Assembly (NCBI RefSeq): GCF_001187435.1
Contig: NZ_LFXA01000017.1
Location: forward strand, 558,001-622,000
Direction: 5' to 3'
Source: Streptomyces caatingaensis
GTDB lineage: Bacteria > Actinomycetota > Actinomycetes > Streptomycetales > Streptomycetaceae
Length of the DNA stretch: 64,000 bases
Part shown: piece by piece, positions 37,432 to 39,096 of the stretch
Layout: each line of letters opens with the position of its first letter
How positions within the stretch are numbered: the stretch's first letter is position 1
Program-made: the position numbers and the translations under genes
The notes under the pieces: generated by a model
The model's input: the letters and a program-made list of their open reading frames with translations, nothing else
What the model was told of the DNA's origin: nothing
The model's database searches: none

Positions 37432-37483
37432 GCGCCGGTGGCCGGGCCGGGGAGCAGCCGCTCCCCGGCCCGGCCACCGGCGC
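37432..37483. terminator. Very long perfect terminator hairpin
   Basis: A 24-bp perfect inverted repeat (left arm 37432-37455, right arm 37460-37483) with a 4-nt loop AGCC, followed by TTT. It isolates the DUF4229 gene from the transporter unit downstream. Confidence 0.85.
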
Positions 37484-37505: not shown

Positions 37506-37532
37506 GGAACCCAAAGAGACCCTTTGGGTTCC
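37506..37532. promoter_or_regulatory. Palindromic operator overlapping a -35 element
   Basis: Perfect 11-bp arms GGAACCCAAAG / CTTTGGGTTCC with a 5-base spacer. The right arm contains TTGGGT, the predicted -35 of the leader-peptide promoter, so a bound protein would block RNA polymerase. The lack of a T run and the following promoter argue against a terminator. The regulator is not known; the TetR gene downstream has a different self-operator. Confidence 0.6.
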
Positions 37533-37553
37533 TCAAAGTTGCAGTGTTAACGT
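37524..37553 (+). promoter_or_regulatory. Predicted promoter of the leader peptide-transporter unit
   Basis: TTGGGT (37524-37529) and TAACGT (37548-37553) are 18 bases apart. The -10 ends six bases before the ATG of a 34-codon ORF, so the message probably begins at that ATG (leaderless). Confidence 0.5.
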
Positions 37554-37559
37554 ATCGAC

Positions 37560-37664
37560 ATGAAGACAGCAGCAGCGCACCGCCTCCCCATGGGTCCCGC
37601 GCTCGTGGCGCGCCTGCACGTCGATCTTTGCCGCCGTCCGTCCGCGGCCTGTTGCCGCCGCTGA
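37560..37664 (+). CDS. Cysteine-containing leader peptide upstream of the DAACS transporter
   Basis: 34-codon ORF ending ARLHVDLCRRPSAACCRR. The pattern R-x-HVDL-x-R-x-x-SA-x-C is that of the short attenuator leader peptides found before sulfur and amino-acid genes in Streptomyces, where scarcity of cysteinyl-tRNA stalls the ribosome. Three Cys codons occur, two of them adjacent at the end (TGT TGC). The ATG lies six bases after a -10-like element. A GC hairpin with a T5 tail sits between its stop and the transporter start. The reading is from sequence pattern; expression is unproven. Confidence 0.65.
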   Translation: MKTAAAHRLPMGPALVARLHVDLCRRPSAACCRR

Positions 37665-37705
37665 CCCGCACCATGCGGCCGGAGATCCCGCACGTACGGA
37701 CCTTC

Positions 37706-37725
37706 GGCGCCCCGCGCCCCTTTTT
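37706..37725 (+). terminator. Candidate attenuator terminator before the transporter gene
   Basis: Stem GGCGC / GCGCC with a CCC loop, two more C, then TTTTT, 41 bases after the leader-peptide stop and 27 bases before the transporter start. A GGCGCGCC within the leader ORF (37608-37615) could pair with either arm and act as antiterminator. Confidence 0.45.
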
Positions 37726-37752
37726 CGCCCCCCGTCTGTCCCGGAGTTTCCG

Positions 37753-39096
37753 TTGTCATCGACGCCCCCCGCCGCCACGGCCCCGTCCCGCGGGCCGCGG
37801 TCCTTCCCCGGCCGGATAGCCAAGGTGCCCTTCTGGGCCCAGATCCTCCTCGGTCTCGTCCTCGGTGCCCTCCTCGGCTGGGCCGCCCGCAGCGGCGACA
37901 TCGGCTGGCTGCAGACCACCCTGGACAAGATCGGCGACCTCTTCGTCCAGCTGCTGATGGTCGTGATCGCCCCGCTCGTCTTCTTCGCGATCCTCGTCTC
38001 GATCACCAATCTGCGGAACGTCTCCAACGCCGCCCGGCTGGCGACCCGCACCCTGCTCTGGTTCATGATCACGTCGCTGATCGCGGTCAGCATCGGCCTG
38101 GCGATCGGCCTGCTCACCGACCCCGGCGCGGGCACCGGCCTCACCGCGGCCGACGGCGGCGACCCCAAGAAGAAGGGCTCCTGGCTCGACTTCCTCACCG
38201 GGATCGTGCCCACCGACGTCATCACGCCGTTCACCCGGCTGAACGTGCTCCAGATCGTCTTCATGGCCGCCGTCGCCGGCGTCGCCGTCCTCCAGGTCGG
38301 CGAGAAGGCCAGGCCCCTGCTGACGCTGAGCGAGTCCGTGCTGGAGCTGCTCCAGAAGGTGCTGTGGTGGGTCATCCGGCTCGCCCCGCTGGGCAGCCTC
38401 GGCCTCGTCGGCCACGCCATCCACACGTACGGCTGGGACCTGATCGGCCAGTACGCCACCTTCACCGCCGACATCTACGTCGGCTGCGCCATCGTCCTCT
38501 TCGTCGTCTACCCGCTGCTGCTGGCCGGCTTCGCCAAGGTCAACCCGCTGCAGTTCTTCAAGGGCGCCTGGCCCGCCATCCAGCTGGGCTTCGTCTCCCG
38601 CTCCTCGGTCGGCACGATGCCGCTGACCCAGAAGGTCACCGAGCGCCTGGGCGTGCCCAAGGAGTACACCGCCTTCGCCGTGCCCTTCGGCTCGACGACC
38701 AAGATGGACGGCTGCGCCTCCATCTACCCGGCCATCGCCTCGATCTTCGTGGCGCAGGTCTTCGACGTGCCGCTGGACCTGCGGGACTACCTGCTCATCG
38801 CCTTCGTCTCGGTGATCGGATCCGCCGCCACCGCGGGCCTGACGGGCGCGACCGTGATGCTCACGCTGACGCTGTCGACGCTGGGCCTGCCGATGGCGGG
38901 CGTGGGCCTGCTGCTGGCCATCGACCCGATCGTGGACATGGTCCGGACGGCGACCAATGTCGCCGGCCAGTCGGTGGTGCCGATCATCGTGGCCTCGCGG
39001 GAGAAGATCCTCGACCGCACCGCCTACGACACCGTCTCCGCCTCCGGCCTGGACCGGGAGGAGACCGCGCGGCCGGCCGCCGTGACCGCGGCGTAA
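37753..39096 (+). CDS. Dicarboxylate/amino acid:cation symporter (DAACS family)
   Basis: 447-residue GltP/DctA/TcyP-type transporter with about eight helices and two re-entrant loops. Hallmarks are VGTMPLTQKV preceded by SRSS (serine-rich hairpin HP1), FAVPFGSTTKMDG (the NMDGT-like helix 7 motif) and IDPIVDMVRTATNVAGQ (helix 8 with the substrate-binding Asp and Asn). The start is TTG with GGAG six bases upstream. DAACS members carry C4-dicarboxylates, glutamate/aspartate or cystine; the cysteine leader upstream favours a sulfur amino acid but does not prove it. Confidence 0.93.
   Translation: MSSTPPAATAPSRGPRSFPGRIAKVPFWAQILLGLVLGALLGWAARSGDIGWLQTTLDKIGDLFVQLLMVVIAPLVFFAILVSITNLRNVSNAARLATRTLLWFMITSLIAVSIGLAIGLLTDPGAGTGLTAADGGDPKKKGSWLDFLTGIVPTDVITPFTRLNVLQIVFMAAVAGVAVLQVGEKARPLLTLSESVLELLQKVLWWVIRLAPLGSLGLVGHAIHTYGWDLIGQYATFTADIYVGCAIVLFVVYPLLLAGFAKVNPLQFFKGAWPAIQLGFVSRSSVGTMPLTQKVTERLGVPKEYTAFAVPFGSTTKMDGCASIYPAIASIFVAQVFDVPLDLRDYLLIAFVSVIGSAATAGLTGATVMLTLTLSTLGLPMAGVGLLLAIDPIVDMVRTATNVAGQSVVPIIVASREKILDRTAYDTVSASGLDREETARPAAVTAA

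Follow-up and report, generated by a model that had tools for sequence, protein, structure and literature searches.

We propose that a TcyP-like importer of the DAACS family in Streptomyces caatingaensis is likely controlled by a cysteine-responsive leader-peptide attenuator, with a separate CAAAG-box operator. The proposal comes from comparative sequence analysis of a locus within a 64,000-nucleotide stretch of its genome (hereafter the window). When charged Cys-tRNA is scarce, a ribosome on the leader would stall with the UGU codon at position 13 in its A site (positions are counted from the Arg of R-x-HVDL, and 13 is the last position of the NF042934 leader profile). The stalled ribosome would alter the pairing of the segment spanning the Cys codons with the intergenic RNA, freeing the ribosome-binding site of the transporter gene. 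With ample cysteine the leader would be completed, its segment would pair with a downstream RNA segment (segment 2) and translation would stay low, while the CAAAG-box operator would add transcriptional control. Such a system would extend the set of genes under actinomycete cysteine leaders to a probable cystine importer, and it points to one directly testable codon.

The locus and its genomic context

The leader ORF lies 5' of the transporter gene, which starts with TTG and has a GGAG upstream (Table 1). The locus was compared across the 80 best public relatives of the transporter, of which 79 are titled Streptomyces or Streptomycetaceae and one (L012) Streptosporangium; the closest is that of Streptomyces sp. 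AV19 (94%). With genes for MqnE in 74, DUF4229 in 76 and a TetR protein in 54 of the 80 loci, synteny is largely kept across the 3-kb flanks examined. Between the DUF4229 gene and the leader promoter lies a perfect 18-bp GC-rich inverted repeat with a 6-nt loop (37437-37478), which is terminator-like in form and has no T tail. Several features in Table 1 were absent from an earlier sequence-only reading of this DNA: the CAAAG/CTTTG/CAAAG element, a promoter that predicts transcription from the leader ATG, RNA segment 2 with its conservation, and the near-invariant TGT codon.

Table 1. Features of the leader-transporter locus (window coordinates)
Feature	Coordinates	Strand	Basis or remark
Three-box promoter element CAAAG (37512-37516), CTTTG (37522-37526), CAAAG (37534-37538)	37512..37538	+	Direct sequence
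Dyad GGAACCCAAAG-N5-CTTTGGGTTCC holding boxes 1 and 2	37506-37532	+	Direct sequence
Promoter-like hexamers TTGGGT (37524-37529) and TAACGT (37548-37553), 18-nt spacer	37524..37553	+	Sequence
Leader peptide ORF MKTAAAHRLPMGPALVARLHVDLCRRPSAACCRR	37560..37664	+	ATG start, 34 aa
Conserved core R0 to C13 (RLHVDLCRRPSAAC)	37611..37652	+	pN/pS 0.029-0.068; motif common to other NF042934 leaders
RNA segment 1, codons D-L-C-R (GATCTTTGCCGC)	37623..37634	+	Base-pairs with segment 2 in the fold of lowest energy
Position-13 Cys codon TGT, putative sensing codon	37650..37652	+	TGT in 218/220 leaders read
RNA segment 2, GCGG-C-CGGAGATC, complementary to segment 1, contains CCGGAG (37679-37684)	37675..37687	+	Conserved in the ten-member window clade
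RNA segment 3, CTTCGG (CTCCTGG in several relatives)	37702..37707	+	Alignment reading; candidate pairing with CCGGAG
Hairpin and T5 tail of the sequence-only reading	37706..37725	+	Present; T5 not conserved
CCGGAG with transporter Shine-Dalgarno GGAG	37741..37746	+	Relatives have GGAG or CGGA ahead of the start codon
DAACS/SDF transporter, 447 aa, TTG start, TcyP-like GCASIYPA motif	37753..39096	+	PF00375, 341.6 bits

A probable TcyP-like transporter

When aligned with TcyP, GltP, DctA and SstT of E. coli, the transporter has SRSS, RLGVP, GCA-x-[IL]YPA and P-[IL]-x-DM-x-RTA-x-NV in common with TcyP (b1729), annotated as a cystine/sulfocysteine symporter, although the two are only 28% identical overall. 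Chains of the GltPh type have MDGTA-LYQG in place of GCA-x-YPA and are one residue shorter there. The motif xKMDGCA[AS]IYPA recurs in at least 94 of 101 orthologues, five more having close variants, while the one other SDF protein of the same genome carries LDGTAIYLT, as in DctA. The inserted residue in GCA-x-YPA and the separate DctA-like paralogue both support the attenuator explanation. These sequence features suggest that the carrier is TcyP-like and probably imports cystine or a related sulfur amino acid. The sequence-only reading had placed a cysteine-linked leader before a DAACS carrier of the sulfur-amino-acid type, which finds good support in the conserved Cys codons, the occurrence of the leader family before sulfur genes and the TcyP-like motif.

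It is unlikely, in our estimate, that the carrier instead imports C4-dicarboxylates or acidic amino acids, with the leader tying it only to the general cysteine or redox status of the cell. The best NCBIfam subfamily is indeed DctA, at 215.9 bits far below the cut-off of 513, and the best solved chain is an aspartate transporter; however, the genome encodes a separate DctA-like paralogue with LDGT, and the insertion-bearing GCA-x-YPA is common to the carrier and TcyP. Overall identity (27.9% to TcyP, 28.2% to DctA) does not separate the two, and in a tree of the orthologues with four E. coli proteins as its only references TcyP falls on a long branch. This equal identity, with a tree that does not place TcyP, counts against an attenuator serving a TcyP-like importer.

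Conservation of the leader peptide

The 34-codon ORF ending LHVDLCRRPSAACCRR, with three Cys codons of which two are adjacent, is present as the sequence-only reading described it. The idea also withstood the refutation that this reading had set for it, absence of the ORF or of its Cys codons from relatives: an intact leader with conserved Cys is found in 75 of the 80 loci, 74 of them reading RLH[VI]DLC and one (L020) RRHVDLC. The leader of L044 is broken after the first Cys, and none was found at the remaining four loci (L010, L011, L013 and L058). At L010, L011 (from S. griseocarneus) and L058 the transporter ATG directly follows the conserved CAAAG promoter, and the transcript is predicted to be leaderless; L013 has a short 5' region without the leader peptide. 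These four leaderless relatives count against the attenuator explanation, and species that lack the leader while keeping the promoter offer natural controls. A different lesion is seen at L065 (2792-2887), where an extra base truncates the leader right after the position-13 Cys and the part up to C13 is intact.

Across the window and 74 relatives R0, L1, H2, D4, L5, C6, R7, S10 and C13 are invariant (75/75), position 3 is V or I and A11 is A in 74 of 75, while synonymous codons vary at the invariant residues. In 72 distinct sequences pN/pS is 0.029 for RLHVDL and 0.068 for LVARLHVDLCR, as against 1.33 for the eight codons upstream. The low values in the core, together with the synonymous variation, point to selection on the peptide itself, beyond the Cys codons alone; by this codon comparison the leader ORF is real and under selection. 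C6 is not universal, being Gly in L109. The codon for D4 is GAT in 52 and GAC in 24 of 76 Streptomyces transporter leaders.

Orthologues of the transporter (54-64% identity) were found in 22 of the 118 genomes searched, 19 of which belong to other genera of the class; among eight genomes drawn from the genus itself, the organism's own included, five had no orthologue at the threshold. Leaders lie upstream of 16 of the 19 orthologues from outside Streptomyces and were not seen at the other three (L138, L140 and L142). The presence of the leader both within and outside the genus, and the contrast in pN/pS between core and upstream codons, argue for the attenuator.

A leader family in front of sulfur genes

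The leader peptide matches the NCBIfam family NF042934 (cis_reg_atten, putative leader peptide) with E 1.2e-4, profile positions 2-19 aligning to residues 14-31, of which residue 31 is the position-13 Cys. It has the R-x-HVDL-x-R core with Cys at the profile end and, like the family, is a short ORF that ends soon after the last conserved Cys. It differs in its score of 21.6 bits, below the cut-off of 27, and in having a DAACS carrier downstream. The suggestion of the sequence-only reading that the peptide fits the pattern of Streptomyces leaders before sulfur genes stands as regards the core and the placement of the family. Among nine relatives' leaders scanned in frame one exceeded the cut-off (L057, 33.9), as did orthologous leaders in three genomes of other families (G079, G097 and G113).

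Matches to NF042934 were obtained in 68 of 98 genomes of the class; among 198 genomes drawn from the phylum 11 had a match, and each of these belongs to the class. We scanned the downstream genes at 28 of the best 30 loci in class genomes (L158 and L172 being left out) and recovered rhodanese (7), DUF4395 (6), sulfite/nitrite reductase (4) and luciferase-like monooxygenase (2) domains, APS kinase, cysK-like PALP, NMT1-like, SBP_bac_11 and CbiX once each, and none in four cases. The DUF4395 genes lie directly behind the leaders at L146, L149, L150, L151, L157 and L159, which suggests a sulfur-related role for DUF4395.

In the organism's own genome there are nine matches at E up to 10, of which three are clear members: the window leader, a leader preceding a 2OG oxygenase gene (22.9 bits) and another preceding a cysteine dioxygenase gene (35.1 bits). 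A separate pattern search of this genome gave eight matches, mostly of other origin, which were set aside. The association of the family with sulfur genes, the dioxygenase included, favours the attenuator explanation, yet the dioxygenase under the same leader also counts against it. At that locus (L089:1501-2140) the leader RVHVDLLRYAGCVCRPSC precedes the PF05995 gene, whose induction by cysteine shortage would be paradoxical, since a cysteine dioxygenase would be expected to rise, not fall, with cysteine. The enzyme may act on another thiol, the sign of the leader may be gene-specific, or arrest may respond to free cysteine and not to its shortage.

Comparison with described leaders lends further support, in that mycobacterial cysteine leaders are reported as translation attenuators in PMC13236596 and PMC9031893. 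As cited in PMC13236596, PMC9094748 and PMC9031893 (Canestrari 2020), the Ms5788A type comprises polycysteine leaderless sORFs; like these, the window leader is a short Cys-rich ORF predicted at the first codon of its transcript and placed before a sulfur-linked gene. Polycysteine members such as RRAVDLCRVAGCCCCCCSC have a core in common with it, the fetched members showing RR-x-VDL. Unlike them, the window leader has at most two adjacent Cys and no polycysteine run, and the Ms5788A model scores it at 14.5 against a cut-off of 45. In the literature covered, on cysteine leaders of Actinobacteria and Streptomyces and on Streptomyces cystine transporters, with most subscription papers outside its scope, this pair of leader and carrier was not described, and neither RLHVDL nor HVDL was found in connection with a leader peptide.

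A near-invariant TGT codon

The position-13 Cys codon is TGT in 218 of the 220 leaders read: 76/76 Streptomyces transporter leaders, 18/18 others from the transporter-orthologue search, 54/54 NF042934 loci from the own-genome, class and phylum searches, 60/60 further stretches from the class matches to NF042934 (two being repeats) and 10/12 leaders at same-genus promoter-box matches. The census covers the fetched part of the NF042934 matches in class genomes. As the leaders were found by peptide and not by codon, the search method is not biased to TGT. One exception, L108, is a full leader with TGC at position 13; the other, L118 (reverse strand, around 1621), has an in-frame duplication, RCMSAIC-RCMSAPC, and its position-13 codon is TGC, whereas the Cys of the second copy is encoded by TGT. 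Without L118 the 219 leaders reduce to 212 distinct 100-nt sequences, 211 of them with TGT. TGT at this position recurs across many families and in front of genes of at least ten kinds.

By comparison, TGT accounts for 24 of 635 Cys codons (3.8%) in neighbouring coding genes. The other Cys codons of the Streptomyces transporter leaders are TGC versus TGT in 65 and 11 cases at C6, 30 and 30 at C8 and 39 and 7 at C14; those in the 60 further stretches are TGC in 51 and TGT in 7. Fisher p-values for TGT against the background, calculated before the exceptions were known, overstate the case because of the kinship among the sequences. It is unusual for a synonymous position to be almost never changed in genomes that choose the other codon about 96% of the time. 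Both Cys codons would be read by a single tRNA-Cys with a GCA anticodon, UGU by wobble.

Set against this background, the near-invariant TGT, which itself favours the attenuator explanation, leads us to infer that codon 13 is one fixed stall codon, perhaps helped by the nascent peptide. Conserved residues upstream of a fixed stall codon are what characterizes an arrest peptide; here the strongly constrained core lies upstream of the position-13 TGT, the putative stall codon. More tentatively, and as less likely than not, the actinomycete R-x-[HA]VDL-x-R leaders might constitute one codon-addressed arrest peptide: HVDL, lying about 8-11 residues from the decoding codon, would prime the ribosome, and the single, slowly decoded UGU at position 13 would act as the cysteine sensor for many sulfur genes including the importer, the choice of UGU over UGC being itself functional. 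If UGU-specific stalling holds, a single codon with a short nascent peptide could sense an amino acid without a run of codons.

Promoter architecture and the CAAAG boxes

In an alignment of 79 promoters anchored on GTGTTA, 64 carry CAAAG at both -32 and -10 relative to that motif and 71 carry CTTTG at -22; GTGTTA itself is 96-100% conserved per base in 78 promoters. A sigma-70 scan gave no site. Of 72 leaders in which the distance between the -10 hexamer and the start codon was measured, 70 have 6-7 nt and two have 10 nt, four more being unmeasured. This is the geometry given for leaderless transcripts of S. lividans in PMC8079986, and it predicts a transcript start at or adjoining the leader ATG. 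Outside Streptomyces TAnnnT lies 8-9 nt upstream of the candidate start in only 4 of 16 cases; thus, a leaderless start is not general there.

The triple box occurs once in the organism's own genome, even allowing up to three mismatches to a consensus. Exact matches number at most one per genome: of the 24 other genomes of the genus 14 have one, and with its own the total is 15 of 25. Thirteen of these 15 precede a leader, the exceptions being L107 and L110, and two matches in another family (L105 and L106) look unrelated. As a reversed control pattern gives 0-3 matches per same-genus genome, a lone exact match is no proof by itself. With at most one exact match per same-genus genome against this control, there is no sign of a wider CAAAG-box regulon.

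The conserved boxes, kept in the leaderless L010, L011 and L058, could also mean that the leader is merely an ORF for translational coupling or spacing and that regulation occurs mainly through a protein binding the boxes. We regard this as highly improbable: a spacer would need neither the strong peptide selection nor the conserved Cys codons nor the fixed TGT, and the leader family recurs before sulfur genes that lack the CAAAG promoter.

Intergenic RNA and the proposed mode of attenuation

The sequence-only reading had proposed a terminator in the form of a GGCGC-CCC-GCGCC hairpin with a T5 tail. The hairpin (37706-37718) and tail (37721-37725) do exist, but the terminator role did not hold up. 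A run of five T between the leader stop and the transporter start occurs only in the window, L012 and L015, that is, in 3 of 75 leaders with a placed start codon; the nearest relative, L009, reads TTCTT instead, and a GGCG...CGCC stem could be made out by eye in close relatives alone. A terminator scan found one such site against 0.6 in shuffles. We rejected a conserved intrinsic terminator between leader and transporter on these grounds, and classical transcription attenuation, in which the position of the ribosome would decide termination at this hairpin, is very unlikely, the hairpin and tail of the window and the T5 of L012 and L015 being what speaks for it. In this respect the leader differs from the trpL and leuL attenuators of Streptomyces, which it resembles in having codons of the regulated amino acid and a leaderless start, here a predicted one: those have intrinsic terminators, according to PMC8079986, while no conserved terminator U-tract is found here.

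A Rho-dependent route, in which stalled ribosomes would shield a Rho-loading site in C-rich intergenic RNA and finished translation would expose it, is also quite unlikely in our estimate. In some relatives the intergenic stretches are C-rich with few G, and cysteine leaders without terminators have been predicted before the cys operons of Mycobacterium and P. acnes with Rho as a possible route (PMC1262725); however, we found no conserved element for Rho.

Complementarity of the leader to the intergenic RNA offers a hint of translational attenuation. Duplex energies were computed for segments of the leader paired with the intergenic RNA and were expressed as z against dinucleotide shuffles. 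The L-C-R-C-M-S segment has a mean z of -1.53, with 35 of 71 loci below -1.64, versus 0.04, -0.02 and -0.48 for other segments. The competitor within the ORF put forward earlier, GGCGCGCC, found no such backing, as its leader segments show no clear excess complementarity overall (mean z -0.02 to 0.04, and -0.25 and -0.45 in the comparison of 65 loci). In 65 loci assigned to clades A-E from their peptides, D-L-C-R-C reaches z -2.18 in A, -2.39 in B and -2.39 in E, 35 of 44 loci lying below -1.64; the window's own clade (z -2.18) has 8 of 10 below this value. This complementarity in A, B and E, with control segments near zero, argues for the attenuator. Against it, clades C (-0.10, 0/7) and D (0.42, 0/14) show no excess for this segment. 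A control in which the RNA is swapped for that of other clades favours a leader's own RNA in A (0.76), B (0.80) and E (0.65); in C it does not (0.47), and in D the own RNA does worse (0.03), which likewise counts against the attenuator. In C and D it is the SAxCC segment that stands out (z -1.57 and -1.81, 11/21 below -1.64), and 7 of the 24 clade B loci reach -1.64 with the flanking LVARLHV segment as well.

In the window, segment 1 pairs with segment 2 in the minimum-energy fold (Table 1); L041 has GCCGCCGC against GCGGCGGC where others show GCCGCTGC against GCAGCGGC. As the CCGGAG of the ribosome-binding site is repeated in segment 2, segment 3 could pair with either, and these three elements could form a three-way switch. 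The switch was not borne out by simulated Shine-Dalgarno accessibility: with a ribosome placed on the first Cys, the last Cys or the stop, nothing consistent was seen, either over all loci (up in 15 of 71, down in 12) or by clade. Intergenic self-folding hardly beats shuffles (mean z A -0.13, B -0.44, D -0.31, C -1.12, E -1.25); both results count against the attenuator explanation. A covariation check in the largest clade gave no countable pairs, as the paired segments are nearly uniform there, and an Rfam scan gave nothing near the gathering score of its family. At clade D loci such as L057, L074 and L079 a hairpin enclosing the stop codon could form between an intergenic ACGTCAG and a CTGACGT located at the leader stop, both noted by eye.
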